A DNA stretch of 33,477 bases from Gammaproteobacteria bacterium CG11_big_fil_rev_8_21_14_0_20_46_22 (GTDB lineage: Bacteria; Pseudomonadota; Gammaproteobacteria; UBA12402). The stretch covers positions 3,678 to 37,154 of the forward strand of contig PCWT01000030.1 in assembly GCA_002796245.1 (NCBI GenBank). Direction: 5' to 3'. Below the pieces are notes generated by a model, which did no database searches, was not told the DNA's origin, and saw only the letters and a list, made by a program, of their open reading frames with translations. The stretch's first letter is position 1; each line of letters starts with the position of its first letter. A program made the position numbers and the translations under genes. This document shows, piece after piece, positions 17,759 to 23,626 of this stretch.

Positions 17759-17874
17759 ACCGTCTTTGCGAGAAGCGAAGCAACGAAGCAATCTCCAGGT
17801 TAATGAGCCAGATTGCCGCGCTCACCGTCGTTCGCTCGCAATGACTTCGGCGATGAAGTGTAGCCTGTATATGG
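17759..17874. repeat. Dispersed palindromic repeat, copy A (about 116 bp)
   Basis: This copy aligns along its whole length with 24245-24361. Shared landmarks are ACCGTCTTTGCGAG at the left, an exactly shared central block ATCTCCAGGTTAATGAGCC and AGATTGCCGCGCTCAC, and GTAGCCTGTATATGG at the right. The two halves are imperfect inverted repeats (GCAATCT left, AGATTGC right), so the RNA or single strand can fold back. It starts in the folM-EVE gap and runs into the 3' end of the EVE gene. Confidence 0.85.
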
Positions 17875-18327
17875 ACTCATGGCGATAATGACATCCCATT
17901 CATCCGGCTCAACGGGCATCACGGATAAACGGTTGCCTTTTTTTACCAAGCGCATATTGGATAACGCGGGCGATTGCTTAAGTTCATCAAGACTAATGAT
18001 GGTTTTAAACTTTTCTTTAAACTTTACGTCCACCATAAACCAGCGTGGATTATCTTCCGTGCTTTTGGGGTCGAAATATTTACTTTCAGGGTTCCAGGCG
18101 GTGAAATCGGGGTAAGCTTCTTTGACCACTTCTGCGATACCGACAATACCGGGCGGTGTGCAGTTTGAATGATAAAAGAAAATCAGGTCACCTTTTTTCA
18201 TGCTTTTCATGAAATTACGTGCTTGGTAATTGCGCACACCATCCCAATGTTCAGTTTTTTTCGGCATTAATTTTAAATCATCGATACCAAAGACATCGGG
18301 TTCGGATTTCATGAGCCAGTAATTCAT
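17800..18327 (-). CDS. EVE-domain protein with a repeat-derived tail
   Basis: EVE domains resemble the PUA/YTH folds and bind modified bases in RNA or DNA; the bacterial role is mostly unknown. The 175-residue protein has the expected N-terminal MNYWLMKSEPDVFGIDDL, WDGVRNYQARNFM (32-44 region), KKGDLIFFYHS, GIVGIAEVVKEAYPD, and PRWFMVDVKF, covering the single domain. The domain ends near residue 150 (EWDVIIAMS). The last 24 residues and the stop are encoded by dispersed repeat copy A (17800-17874), so they are an acquired tail. The gene follows sbcB after 46 bases on the same strand and may be cotranscribed with it. Confidence 0.9.
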   Translation of the reverse strand: MNYWLMKSEPDVFGIDDLKLMPKKTEHWDGVRNYQARNFMKSMKKGDLIFFYHSNCTPPGIVGIAEVVKEAYPDFTAWNPESKYFDPKSTEDNPRWFMVDVKFKEKFKTIISLDELKQSPALSNMRLVKKGNRLSVMPVEPDEWDVIIAMSPYTGYTSSPKSLRANDGERGNLAH

Positions 18328-18373: not shown

Positions 18374-19756
18374 TTAAAATTTAGCTCGGCGAGTGTAAAG
18401 TGAGAGTAGATCGTTAATCAAGCTTTTGTTTTCTGCCTCGGATGACTGAAGAGCGGCTAGGGCAGTTTCCGGTGTCAGCTTGTCTTGCCCGCGATAATCT
18501 TTGGCATAAAAGCAGCGTGCTAGATATTGTTGATACTTATCGGCATAGCGTTCGCTTAAAGCCTCAGGGTAATTTCGCCCGATAATACGAAGAGCAAGCT
18601 CGCGGTTCTCGGCGGTTTCAAATTCTTCGATGAAGTGTTGTTTGAGTTCTGGCTTGGCTTCGTGAAAATTTAAAGCGGTGTTTTGATCGCGTCGCGATAA
18701 AAAATCACTTTGATACAGGATGCTATCAAGATCAGCGTCTGGCACTAAAGGGTATTTGTAATCTAAGTAATGGTTGGTGATGGCTTCCAATATTTCAGGG
18801 TTGTTTTGTAAAAATCGCTGGTTGTTTTCAACGATTGCCAGGCGGTCTTCGCTAAAGTGGCGCATAAAGCGTTTTTTGGTGGGTAAAATAAATGGCGCTT
18901 CAGCCAATTTTTTTTTCATGCACCACGTGGTTTTCTCAAGGCTGTCGATCGTTGTTTCAGCGAGCTCTTCGCGATCTAAACGCAAAAAGCACCACTGATT
19001 ACGGTAATGGCGATGTTGGCCTAAACACAATGCAAAGGTTTGAAAATGTTGTCCGTAGCCGAGCTTGCTATCAACGAGGATGGCTTCTTTGAATGACGTA
19101 TCGCTAAACGCAAAGCTTAATTGCTCCATGCGTTTAGCATCTTCGAGCTTATTGAAGTAGCCGCTGGCGTAAGCCCACATGGCCGTGTTGGCTTTAAGGC
19201 GCCTTGCCAGTGCAAGCGTGGCGCGCACATCGACCATGGCATCGTGTGCTTGGCCACTCGCCAAATTATTTTCCGCGTTAATGTTCTCAAGCTTTAAAGA
19301 CACGCGCCCATCAAGCATAGGCCAACGTAAATCACATTCACCAAATAAATAAAACAATACGGTGATGGGAAAGATATCCATGCGCGCGCACTGGTTCGCA
19401 AACTGATGCGTGTAGGGTGTTAAAAGATTGCGATAAAAGCCAAAGCGTAGAAACTCATCATCAAAGCCCAGTGTGTTGTAGCCAAGGCTTACTGTGCCGG
19501 GCTCATTCATCAGCGCATGAATCGCACGAATACCTTCAACCTCAGGCAGGCCCTCTTGCATGTTTTCAGGGCTGATTTGGTGGGTGAGTACCGCGCCGGG
19601 TGCGGGCACAATATCATCGCGCAGGCGAATGACGATTTCTTTTTCGTCCAATGTATTAAAGGTTTCGTCGGTGCGAATGGCCGCAAACTGCAAGACTTGA
19701 TCAAAGGCAGGGTTTAGGCCAGTGGTTTCGATGTCGTAAAAAAGGTAGGTTTTCAT
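18374..19756 (-). CDS. sbcB: Exodeoxyribonuclease I
   Basis: ExoI degrades single-stranded DNA 3' to 5' and acts in recombination and mismatch repair. The 460-residue length is close to E. coli (475). The DEDDh exonuclease motifs are D8-I-E10-TTG, NTLGFDDEFLRFGFYRN, and HDAMVDVRATLALA. The remainder matches the ExoI SH3-like and helical domains. The start codon overlaps the stop of the upstream ATPase gene as ATGA (19753-19756), so translation of the two is coupled. The EVE gene follows on the same strand. ATPase, sbcB and EVE together look like one transcription unit. Confidence 0.96.
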   Translation of the reverse strand: MKTYLFYDIETTGLNPAFDQVLQFAAIRTDETFNTLDEKEIVIRLRDDIVPAPGAVLTHQISPENMQEGLPEVEGIRAIHALMNEPGTVSLGYNTLGFDDEFLRFGFYRNLLTPYTHQFANQCARMDIFPITVLFYLFGECDLRWPMLDGRVSLKLENINAENNLASGQAHDAMVDVRATLALARRLKANTAMWAYASGYFNKLEDAKRMEQLSFAFSDTSFKEAILVDSKLGYGQHFQTFALCLGQHRHYRNQWCFLRLDREELAETTIDSLEKTTWCMKKKLAEAPFILPTKKRFMRHFSEDRLAIVENNQRFLQNNPEILEAITNHYLDYKYPLVPDADLDSILYQSDFLSRRDQNTALNFHEAKPELKQHFIEEFETAENRELALRIIGRNYPEALSERYADKYQQYLARCFYAKDYRGQDKLTPETALAALQSSEAENKSLINDLLSLYTRRAKF

Positions 19757-20910
19757 GGTGCGATAATAGTGTGGGTTTCGTTAAAGGGTAAAAATAGTGT
19801 GTCTTTTTGTGTTATCGCTTTGCCTGCGTAGATCACGTATTTTTTTTCGACACGATCTTTTGTTAACTCTTGAAAAAAATCCAAGTGTTTTTTAAAGCGA
19901 TCATCGTGGCTTTGGCTGGCTTTGATTTCAATCGGGGTCAGCGTGTTGCCTTGCTTGTAAATTAAATCGATTTCGCGCTCTGTTTTGTCTCGATAATAAT
20001 AGAGCGAAGCAGTCAGGCCACGGTTATAGCACGCCTTAAAGGCTTCCATGACTATCATATTCTCGAATAAAGCGCCCCTTAAAGGGTCGCGTTCGACTTG
20101 TTTTAATTCGTTAATGTCCAGTAAATGGCACGCTAAGCCAACATCATTGAAGTACAGTTTTGGCGATTTAATTACGCGCTTGCCAAAATTTTCAAAATAA
20201 GGCGGCAGTAAGGTGATTAAATAGGAAGCTTCGAGTACCGCTAACCAGTGTTTTATTGTGGGCACGCTCACACCGGTGTCGACGCTTAAGCTATTCATGT
20301 TCAGCACACTGCCCACGCGGCTGGCACAGAGTTTTAAAAAGCGCTGGAAGCTTGAAAGATCTTTAATCTGAATCAACTGCTTGAGGTCGCGCTCAACGTA
20401 AGTGGCAATATAGTTATCATACGCGGTGGCAGGCATCAGTTTGGATTGGTATATCCTTGGATAAAAACCAGTGAACAAATATTCATCCACGGAAAGTCTG
20501 GTACTGGGGTCGATTTCTTCCAGTGAAAGCGGCAGAAGTTTGATGATGGCCGTTCTGCCTGCTAGAGATTGTGTGAGTGCGTACTGCAATGAAAACTGAT
20601 GCGAGCCGGTTAGGATGAATTGCCCGACTTGTTGTGATTTATCGACCTCGACTTGGATATACGACAAAAGCTCAGGGCAGCGCTGCACTTCATCAAAAAT
20701 CGCGCCCTGGGCATATTTTTCAATAAAGCTGACAGGGTCGCCATCAAACTCTGCACGTGTTTGGGGTGATTCTAAATTGACATAGGGTTTGTCGGCAAAG
20801 CACTGTTGTGCCAGTGTGGTCTTTCCCGACTGCCTTGGGCCGGTAATGGTAACCACGGGGTATTGGCCTGCAAGCCGCCGTGCTTGGTTTTCTGCAATAC
20901 GTTTAAACAT
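19753..20910 (-). CDS. AAA_14/DUF4143 ATPase
   Basis: The 385-residue protein has a complete N-terminal AAA ATPase domain: Walker A TGPRQSGKTT (23-32), Walker B AIFDEVQ (70-76) and FILTGSHQFSL as sensor. The C-terminal half is DUF4143, a nuclease-like fold with the pattern LYFNDVGLACHLL, LFENMIVMEA, YYRDKTEREIDLIYK and PIEIKASQS; the E-x-D...E-x-K spacing resembles the PD-(D/E)xK nuclease core. Members of this family are widespread, often patchily distributed and in search of a function; cleavage has not been shown for most. It overlaps sbcB by 4 bases. Upstream lie a perfect inverted repeat and three spaced palindromes, likely control sites. The ribosome binding site is poor. Confidence 0.92.
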   Translation of the reverse strand: MFKRIAENQARRLAGQYPVVTITGPRQSGKTTLAQQCFADKPYVNLESPQTRAEFDGDPVSFIEKYAQGAIFDEVQRCPELLSYIQVEVDKSQQVGQFILTGSHQFSLQYALTQSLAGRTAIIKLLPLSLEEIDPSTRLSVDEYLFTGFYPRIYQSKLMPATAYDNYIATYVERDLKQLIQIKDLSSFQRFLKLCASRVGSVLNMNSLSVDTGVSVPTIKHWLAVLEASYLITLLPPYFENFGKRVIKSPKLYFNDVGLACHLLDINELKQVERDPLRGALFENMIVMEAFKACYNRGLTASLYYYRDKTEREIDLIYKQGNTLTPIEIKASQSHDDRFKKHLDFFQELTKDRVEKKYVIYAGKAITQKDTLFLPFNETHTIIAP

Positions 20911-20930: not shown

Positions 20931-20967
20931 CCGGACAAATTTAAAGTTGAACTTTAAATTTGTCCGG
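20931..20967. repeat. Perfect 17-bp inverted repeat upstream of the ATPase gene
   Basis: Arms 20931-20947 (CCGGACAAATTTAAAGT) and 20951-20967 are exact reverse complements with a 3-base centre (TGA). The element ends 21 bases before the ATPase ATG at 20910. Neither strand has a proper T run after the stem, so an operator or leader hairpin is more likely than a terminator. Confidence 0.85.
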
Positions 20968-21030: not shown

Positions 21031-21116
21031 TATCCTTATAGATAAGGATGGTTTTTAAAGATATATCCTTGTCTACAGGGATAGATTTCGGGATTTTATC
21101 CTTTTAGACAAGGATA
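21031..21116. promoter_or_regulatory. Three 20-bp palindromes at exact 33-bp spacing
   Basis: Units at 21031-21050, 21064-21083 and 21097-21116 each read TATCCTT, six bases, AAGGATA, with one mismatch in each of the first two. The centres are ATAGAT, GTCTAC and TTAGAC; read on the minus strand the middle one is GTAGAC, so the consensus centre is NTAGAY with the middle unit inverted. Starts are spaced 33 and 33 bases, about three helical turns, so a dimeric protein would bind three sites on one face. The array lies between the uvrD stop and the ATPase start, 120 bases or more upstream of the latter. Confidence 0.85.
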
Positions 21117-21133: not shown

Positions 21134-23317
21134 CTAAGCAATCGTCTCAAGCTTGGCAAACGATTGCAGCAACCACTTGCTGCCGGCTTTTTTGAAGTTG
21201 ACCTGCACGCGTGCGCCGTCGCCTTCACCTTCCACGGCCAGTACAATACCTTGGCCGAATTTCGCATGCGCCACTAATTGCCCGGGTCGAAAACCTGCGG
21301 CATCGTAGTCTTTAAATTTCGAGACGGGTTTAGGCTTGTGAAAACCCCGGCTTTGCGGGATCGTGACTTTCGCGCGGGGGCGAATTTCTTCCACACATTC
21401 ACGCGGAATTTCATGCAAGAAGCGAGAGGGCGCTTGATAGGTTTCCCGGCCGTAGAGTGCGCGCACTTCGGCATAGCTTAAGATTAATTTTTCCATGGCG
21501 CGAGTCATGCCCACATAACACAGCCGGCGTTCTTCCAGGCAGCCCTTTTGATCTTCCAAAGACATTTGGTGAGGGAATAAACCTTCTTCTAAGCCTGCGA
21601 TAAACACGAGTGGAAATTCTAAACCTTTAGCTGAGTGCATCGTCATGAGTTGGGCGCAGTCGGTAAACTTATCTGCCTGGCCTTCACCTGCTTCCAATGC
21701 CGTGTGTGCAAGGAACTGTGTGAGCGGATCGCCGTCCACATCTTCACGCAGTTCTTCAATAAACTGTGCGGCGGCACTGCTAAGCTCTTCTAAGTTTTCT
21801 ACTTTGGCTCGCGCCTTTTCACCGCGTTCTTTGCGGTAGTGATCGAGCAGGGTGCTAAGATGCAACACTTGTTTAATTTTATCGGGTAATTTTAAATCAG
21901 CAATTTGCACTTGCAGTTCTTGGATCAACTCAATAAAAGCTGAAATGGCCGACACCGCTCGGCTCGGCAGCAAGCTTTCATCCATGATTTTTAAAGCGGC
22001 TTGCCAGAGCGATAAGCCGGATTCGCGGGCAATTTCACGGATGGTGGCTACGCTGCGATTACCAATGCCGCGAACGGGCACATTGATGATGCGCTCAAAC
22101 GCACTATCGTTATTCGTGTTTTCAAGCAGTCGCAGATACGCCAGCGCATCTTTAATTTCTGCCCGTTCATAGAAGCGCAGGCCGCCGTGGATGCGATACG
22201 GTACACCCGCTTGCAAAAAAGCTTCTTCGAGAATACGAGACTGCGCATTGGAGCGGTACAGCACGGCGGCCTCTCTAAGCAGCCTGCCGCTGTGTTGCCA
22301 TTGCTTGATCTTATCGACGATAAAACGTGCCTCATCCAAGTCATTAAACGCGGCATAAATGGAAATCGGCTCACCCTCGCTGCTTTCAGTCCACAGGGTT
22401 TTACCCATTCGATCATTGTTATTTTCAATGAGGGTGTTGGCGGCGTTTAAGATGGTGCCGGTGGAGCGGTAATTTTGCTCCAAACGAATGTGGGTGACGG
22501 GTTTGAAATCTTCTTCGAAGCGGCGAATGTTTTCAACTTGTGCGCCACGCCAGCTGTAGATTGACTGGTCATCATCGCCGACGACCATGATTTTATTGCC
22601 ACTGTGGCATAACAATTTTAGCCAAGCATATTGCAAGCGGTTAGTGTCTTGAAACTCATCCACCAGCCAATAACGAAAACGTTTCTGATAATGATCGAGC
22701 ACCGACAAATTGTCGCGCATCAGTTCAAAGGTGCGCAGCAACAGCTCGGCAAAATCGACGAGGTGCTGTTGAAAGCAGGCCTCTTCATAGAGCGCGTACA
22801 TCTTCAGCATGTTTTTTTCGAAATAATCGAAGGCCTTGATGTCGCCGGCACGTAGGCCATCGTCTTTTTTCTGGTTGATAAACCACTGCACTTGCTTCGG
22901 AGGCCATTGGTTTTCGTCGATATCATGCTCGCGCATGAGGCGGCGTATCATGCGGTATTGATCGTCGCTGTCTAAAATTTGAAAATTCTGGCTTAAGCCG
23001 GCTTCTTGGTAATGTGCACGCAATAAACGATGCGCTAGCCCGTGAAACGTGCCCACCCACATCGCGTTGCTAGAAAGGCCGAGCATGCTTTCTATACGTT
23101 CATTCATCTCGCGCGCCGCTTTATTGGTAAAGGTGACGGCTAAAATATTAAACGGCGACAAACCTTCGGCTGCGATTAGCCAGGCAATTCGGTGAACCAA
23201 AACACGGGTTTTTCCGCTGCCGGCGCCGGCAAGAACCAATAAGTTCGACAACGGTGCGCTCACAGCTTGGCGCTGCGCGTCGTTAAGGTCGTTGAGTATG
23301 TGGGAGATGTCTTCCAT
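21134..23317 (-). CDS. uvrD: DNA helicase II
   Basis: UvrD is a 3'-5' superfamily 1 helicase of nucleotide excision and mismatch repair. I use the ATG at 23317 (727 residues) because MEDISHILNDLNDAQRQAVSAP aligns with the N-terminus of E. coli UvrD (720). A longer in-frame start at 23344 has a better ribosome binding site but no family support. Motifs: Walker A GAGSGKT (31-37), motif Ia TFTNKAAREM, motif II DEFQDTN, motif III GDDDQSIYSWRGA, motif IV QNYRS, motif V TMHSAKGLEFP, motif VI VGMTRAMEKL. The C-terminal HAKFGQGIVL module is the UvrD-type RNA polymerase-binding Tudor-like domain, which Rep lacks in this form. It stands alone on the minus strand. Confidence 0.95.
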   Translation of the reverse strand: MEDISHILNDLNDAQRQAVSAPLSNLLVLAGAGSGKTRVLVHRIAWLIAAEGLSPFNILAVTFTNKAAREMNERIESMLGLSSNAMWVGTFHGLAHRLLRAHYQEAGLSQNFQILDSDDQYRMIRRLMREHDIDENQWPPKQVQWFINQKKDDGLRAGDIKAFDYFEKNMLKMYALYEEACFQQHLVDFAELLLRTFELMRDNLSVLDHYQKRFRYWLVDEFQDTNRLQYAWLKLLCHSGNKIMVVGDDDQSIYSWRGAQVENIRRFEEDFKPVTHIRLEQNYRSTGTILNAANTLIENNNDRMGKTLWTESSEGEPISIYAAFNDLDEARFIVDKIKQWQHSGRLLREAAVLYRSNAQSRILEEAFLQAGVPYRIHGGLRFYERAEIKDALAYLRLLENTNNDSAFERIINVPVRGIGNRSVATIREIARESGLSLWQAALKIMDESLLPSRAVSAISAFIELIQELQVQIADLKLPDKIKQVLHLSTLLDHYRKERGEKARAKVENLEELSSAAAQFIEELREDVDGDPLTQFLAHTALEAGEGQADKFTDCAQLMTMHSAKGLEFPLVFIAGLEEGLFPHQMSLEDQKGCLEERRLCYVGMTRAMEKLILSYAEVRALYGRETYQAPSRFLHEIPRECVEEIRPRAKVTIPQSRGFHKPKPVSKFKDYDAAGFRPGQLVAHAKFGQGIVLAVEGEGDGARVQVNFKKAGSKWLLQSFAKLETIA

Positions 23318-23398
23318 AGTGCGGCGATTGTAGCATGGCTTCATAGGCGTGTCCCTGGGCAAGCTGGATTTTTTAGCGTATCGTTCGCGCATGGGTGA

Positions 23399-23626
23399 AG
23401 CGGTGAGTATCAGCAAGCAAAAAACGGCCTTGGTGCTTATGGCGGCACATCGCCCTTGGTTTCCAGCGCCTTGGTTAAATACACGGGTAGCGCCAGTGCG
23501 CCGGCGGGCTATTTGATGTGCTGTGCGGTCTTGGCCCTTTTTGCCGTTTTAAGTCTCTCGGCTATTCGCCGCCGCCTATCATCGTTTGATGTTAGCACGG
23601 AAAACGCCTACACTAGCGAAAAATAA
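23399..23626 (+). pseudogene. Remnant of an MFS transporter (C-terminal part)
   Basis: Codons from 23399 to the TAA at 23624-23626 read through without a stop and give 75 residues. They include AYGGTSPLVSSALVKYTGS (a GGT-xPL motif followed by a helix end) and the hydrophobic helix [21 protein letters not shown], followed by a basic RRR and a polar tail. This is the layout of the last helices of metabolite:H+ symporter-type MFS proteins. There is a stop in the same frame at 23396-23398 and no start codon or earlier helices upstream, because uvrD begins there. It is therefore a fragment of a lost gene. It occupies most of the 322-base gap between uvrD and engB. Confidence 0.6.

Follow-up and report, generated by a model that had tools for sequence, protein, structure and literature searches.

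A phased palindrome array downstream of uvrD matches the putative operators of a DUF4143 ATPase subclade that is missing from the genome assembly

Analysis of a 33,477-nucleotide stretch of DNA (the window) identified an array of three palindromes in the intergenic region that follows uvrD and precedes a DUF4143 ATPase gene, both genes lying on the minus strand. The array matches the operators of another group of these ATPases, subclade A1, and the A1 gene itself is absent from the assembly. The reading that we favour, with moderate confidence and on sequence comparison, is that the array was the promoter-operator of a subclade A1 DUF4143 ATPase (PDC-S01, PADLOC PDLC04787-like) that has since been lost, and would thus be a leftover autoregulatory element.

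A mismatch-tolerant motif search bore out the three 20-bp palindromes described in the sequence-only reading, with starts at 21031, 21064 and 21097 and steps of 33 and 33 bp. On the plus strand, unit 1 (21031..21050) reads TATCCTT-ATAGAT-AAGGATG and unit 2 (21064..21083) TATCCTT-GTCTAC-AGGGATA, each with one mismatch, and unit 3 (21097..21116) reads TATCCTT-TTAGAC-AAGGATA with none, so that the arms hold 2 mismatches in 42 bases. The centres follow the NTAGAY pattern given by that reading, with the middle unit inverted (ATAGAT; GTCTAC, which is GTAGAC inverted; TTAGAC). Shuffled sequences gave an expectation of 0.08 chance matches in the window to TATCCTT-N6-AAGGATA with two mismatches or fewer, and the tandem-palindrome score of the array is 28 at lag 33. 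A whole-genome motif search, proposed at the same time, revealed no scatter: all the matches with at most one mismatch fall in the array, except for one site in contig 28, and no second pair of units on a 30–38 bp grid was found elsewhere in the 2.1-Mb genome. The suggestion that the array could be an iteron set is not sustained, as the units are palindromes and not direct repeats, and their neighbours are uvrD and the DUF4143 ATPase gene, with no replication initiator gene.

To find similar arrays, a GTDB-wide scan for two tandem units was run on 84,980 genomes and returned 36 loci. The three most similar to the window, with ATCCTT-type arms on a 34-bp grid (33 bp in the window), belong to a member of the Legionellales (L116), a deltaproteobacterium (L136) and Marithrix (L148). 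Each of these arrays lies directly upstream of a DUF4143 ATPase gene, as had been anticipated when the array was first linked to such ATPases and a clustering of the motif upstream of their genes was proposed as a check. The genes that directly follow the homologous arrays are PDC-S01 members according to PADLOC, and they come from a different branch of the family than the ATPase resident in the window; two of the three ATPases share only about 24% identity with the latter, and the search that gave this figure did not reach the third, more distant one. The L116 protein has 419 aa. In a scan of the phylum for paired ATCC-N10-GGAT, the other matches look like coding or GC-rich chance occurrences.

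In a quick protein tree computed without a mixture model, the two branches, A and B, separate with an SH-aLRT support of 99, and the 20-row subclade A1 within branch A has a support of 100. Tandem palindromes with a score of at least 24 within 130 bp upstream of the gene were detected in 25 of 48 branch-A genes, 22 of them at lag 32–34 (most commonly 33, in 13 genes, and 34, in 8 genes), versus 3 of 46 branch-B genes and 1 of 127 control promoters; none of 288 shuffles of the branch-A promoters reached this score at lags 32–34. The same analysis in an additional set of 23 genes, whose sources include Methanoperedens, an ANME archaeon and Bacteroidales, detected 7 genes at lag 32–34 and 0 of 138 shuffles. 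Branch-A arrays are gene-specific tandem palindromes with a step of 33–34 bp that finish near the start codon, and by this score about half of the branch-A genes lack a clear array. The 12 operators closest to the half-site of the window (YCCTT/TATCCTT type) all belong to subclade A1.

The arrays also show a defined relation to promoter boxes. The -35 box lies in a palindrome centre in 16 of 28 cases, versus 7.5 expected, an arrangement that covers most of the strongest promoters. In the clearest ones the palindrome centre holds the -35 box and the spacer after it the -10 box, as in L186 (TTGACA-17-TATAAT), and the -10 boxes of the window's relatives read TATAGT in L116 and TATATT in L148. The window has a -35-like TTGTCT on the plus strand at 21069–21074, within unit 2 and in the same place as the -35 boxes of subclade A1. 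The place where a -10 box would be expected from the relatives (21092..21097, plus strand) reads GATTTT, with 3 of 6 positions, which makes the promoter of the window look degraded.

Alignment of the window to the L116 array, taken in gene direction, gave a score of 93 over about 95 bp for the plus strand and of 47 for the minus strand. The maximum in 2000 shuffles of the non-arm bases was 90, and the best A1–A1 pair compared scored 73. Unit 1 shares 18 of 20 positions with the first unit in the L116/L176 array, its unusual last G among them, and the odd AGGGATA of unit 2 is common to the window, L116 and L136. L148 and L136 favour the opposite strand (57 and 59 versus 49 and 48), and a leave-one-out test of orientation was correct in 17 of 23 cases. 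The orientation call, made mainly from L116, is therefore likely though not certain: the array probably faces the plus direction, so that it has the resident ATPase behind it and the 3' end of uvrD ahead. In that direction, the stop codon of uvrD (21134..23416, minus strand, complete to the C-terminal tudor domain) comes 17 bp after unit 3, followed only by a 50-codon TTG frame antisense to uvrD.

There is no A1 ATPase gene directly after the last unit, none among the 19 DUF4143 genes of the 73-contig, 99.65% complete, 2.1-Mb assembly, and a tblastn search of the window for a coding remnant of an A1 gene gave only chance-level matches. As no such gene follows the array or is found elsewhere in the assembly, we classed the array as an orphan and not as a working member. 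The gene is missing whichever way the array faces, and it may sit in a gap of the assembly. The good preservation of the units means that the array could still be in use, either as a live operator/promoter giving an antisense RNA into uvrD, as a plus orientation running into this gene would allow, or as a site where an A1 ATPase lands or is decoyed, the protein being provided in trans or encoded in a part of the genome that was not assembled. We consider this unlikely, given the poor -10 box and the failure to find an A1 gene in so complete an assembly.

The resident AAA_14/DUF4143 ATPase (385 aa; 19753..20910, minus strand) belongs to branch B, and its best PADLOC model is PDLC04790, also PDC-S01. 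It is followed by an exonuclease I-like gene (sbcB; 18374..19756, minus strand), which overlaps its stop codon, and by an EVE-domain gene (17800..18327, minus strand); the overlap between the ATPase stop codon and the sbcB start codon (ATGA, 19753–19756) suggests translational coupling. The order uvrD-ATPase-sbcB was not conserved in the relatives examined, so the juxtaposition of these genes is local.

The resident gene has a palindrome of its own, which the sequence-only reading had overlooked: a perfect 37-bp sequence (CCGGACAAATTTAAAGTT-C-AACTTTAAATTTGTCCGG; 20931..20967, minus strand) at -57..-20, with a core, AAGTT-N-AACTT, that resembles the one in several of the closest homologues. Several other DUF4143 genes of the genome and many homologues have a long palindrome, usually of 29–41 bp, just before the start codon, with a sequence that differs from gene to gene. 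Strong palindromes (score of at least 9) occur in 44% of the promoters of branch A and 30% of those of branch B, versus 5% of control promoters from the same genomes (n=127) and about 1% of shuffles, and in branch B the similarity of the palindromes tracks protein distance (Mantel r=-0.45, 0/5000). Since palindromes are common at the starts of the homologues, 20931–20967 is the usual operator-like element of the resident ATPase, and the array is probably not the operator of this adjacent gene.

The ATPase-sbcB-EVE unit had been named as the simplest target of the array, and a location about 120 bp before the start codon of the ATPase gene, in the same intergenic stretch, would suit an extra distal operator bound by the resident ATPase. 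This is nevertheless quite unlikely, because none of the 46 resident-branch ATPases has a TATCC array (one has a stray single site), the 37-bp palindrome of the resident gene has a different sequence, and the best alignment of the array faces away from the gene. It had also been argued that the link to the ATPase would fail if the ATPase genes of relatives lacked the array while uvrD kept it: the first part was observed, which speaks against this target, and the second was not, as the array is absent from uvrD in four relatives. A DNA search with the intergenic region in 94 relatives returned the 37-bp palindrome, one array-like match before an A-branch gene (in G022), and otherwise chance matches only.

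The operator half-sites differ from gene to gene and follow the protein phylogeny (Mantel r=-0.48, 0/5000). The correlation was kept (r=-0.46) for pairs separated by more than 0.9 substitutions per site, a distance at which intergenic homology should be gone. Paralogs within one genome have different half-sites, as in G078 and G022, an argument for binders that are cognate to each gene. Such covariation and paralog-specific codes would follow from binding of every ATPase to the promoter of its own gene and are hard to reconcile with a single shared regulator, and they suggest that every ATPase of the AAA_14/DUF4143 family may have its own DNA code at its promoter.

The TATCC and GGATA half-sites of the array resemble those of the operators of HipB in Escherichia coli, where TATCC-N8-GGATA is present in several copies before the autoregulated hipBA. 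Binding by an unlinked conventional regulator such as a HipB-like Xre protein is very unlikely despite this resemblance: the spacing is N10 in all three units and not N8, the units stand on a 33–34 bp grid, the arrays with the same half-sites in other genomes precede genes of a different protein family, DUF4143 and not hipBA, and the half-sites vary with the ATPase and not with the genome. A role of the units as terminators of uvrD transcription, or an origin as dispersed palindromic repeats, is highly improbable. RNA of the minus strand does fold better than its shuffled versions (z -5), but no T-run follows any unit, the terminator scan reported nothing within the array on the strand of uvrD, and the motif search of the genome found no dispersed, REP/MITE-like copies, results that already contradict this explanation.

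Structure models of two ATPases (pLDDT 93.9 and 92.4) both resemble the archaeal AAA+ ATPases 2qen and 2fna over the AAA domain and the following helical/winged part (Z 15–17). The VIA comparison was the clearer one, as Foldseek alone gave poor TM-scores, and no weight attaches to a family being absent from these lists. A sequence search found no homologue among solved structures and no match in NCBIfam. The winged helix may have a role in DNA binding. In the alignment, the C-terminal part of branch B shows the pattern E...E-V-D...E-x-K, typical of PD-(D/E)XK enzymes, and that of branch A reads E-V-D...Q-V with the lysine not conserved, so that branch A may lack nuclease activity.

Taken as an orphan A1 operator, the array can be placed in a possible mechanism. 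Living members of subclade A1 have two or three palindromes of about 20 bp, three helical turns apart, ending close to the start codon. Dimers of the ATPase would bind these gene-specific palindromes through the winged helix-turn-helix-like part between the AAA and nuclease-like domains, and cooperative binding on one face of the DNA would shut off their own promoter. The simplest history would begin with two DUF4143 genes transcribed divergently, each from a promoter with a separate operator: the resident branch-B ATPase and the A1 gene, which probably lay on the plus strand. A deletion in the interval from unit 3 to the stop codon of uvrD would then have removed the A1 gene and spared the array.

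PDC-S01 consists of AAA_14 (PF13173) and DUF4143 (PF13635) and is a candidate defence system (PADLOC PDLC04786-04792). In a published survey it is reported to rank fourth in abundance among prokaryotic defence systems and to combine an ATPase with a PD-(D/E)XK-like part in one protein, its experimental validation still being pending (PMC12988326). Both the genes after the homologous arrays and the resident gene belong to this family, and what the window lacks is a gene of the right branch. Autoregulatory operators of phage repressors and toxin-antitoxin systems likewise consist of tandem palindromes over the -35 box and start region, three helical turns apart; here, in contrast, a STAND-like ATPase that ends in a nuclease-like domain is the putative binder, and the half-sites are paralog-specific. 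Autoregulatory phased operators are thus of a known kind, and their paralog-specific form in the DUF4143 family appears to be undescribed in the literature searched, the accessible parts of which contained no description of operators for DUF4143/PDC-S01 genes.

The covariation between palindromes and proteins provides a testable hypothesis on the DNA bound by PDC-S01 ATPases and on their control, and a gene-specific code would let the cognate sites of many members be read off their promoters. More tentatively, and with somewhat less than even confidence, we propose that the PDC-S01 ATPases form a large family in which DNA reading is paralog-specific and each member recognises a private palindrome code at the promoter of its gene, through phased arrays in branch A and one palindrome of 29–41 bp in branch B. 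The dozen or more copies per genome would then be separate, non-crosstalking autoregulated switches, possibly phage-sensing, and orphan arrays such as that of the window would mark switches since lost.

We also recorded several observations on gene number and on other palindrome pairs. Besides the 19 DUF4143 matches of the 2.1-Mb genome, the relatives G022, G056 and G078 have 20 or more, and the Candidatus Methanoperedens genome behind locus L117 (G662) has 16 branch-A profile matches in a single archaeal genome. An order-level pattern search, which covered only 7 genomes, found in a genome of the same family (G001) a perfect TATCCTTCTGCAGAAGGATA with a shortened second copy 40 bp on (L329:1501-1560), which follows closely on a gyrase/topoisomerase A-like gene and has no DUF4143 gene in its vicinity; this site is possibly a second orphan array, or a terminator. 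A conserved pair of ATCCCT...AGGGAT palindromes was detected in a dozen viral contigs (L286-L297), which were set aside because their repeat, ATCCCTGTTTTCAGGGAT, is another one, has a step of 39 bp and is not accompanied by DUF4143 matches. The Rhodobacteraceae MAG Prado181 (L118, L125, L138, L141 and L145) contains GATCCTTC...GAAGGATC palindromes as several pairs, which seem to be copies of a dispersed repeat.
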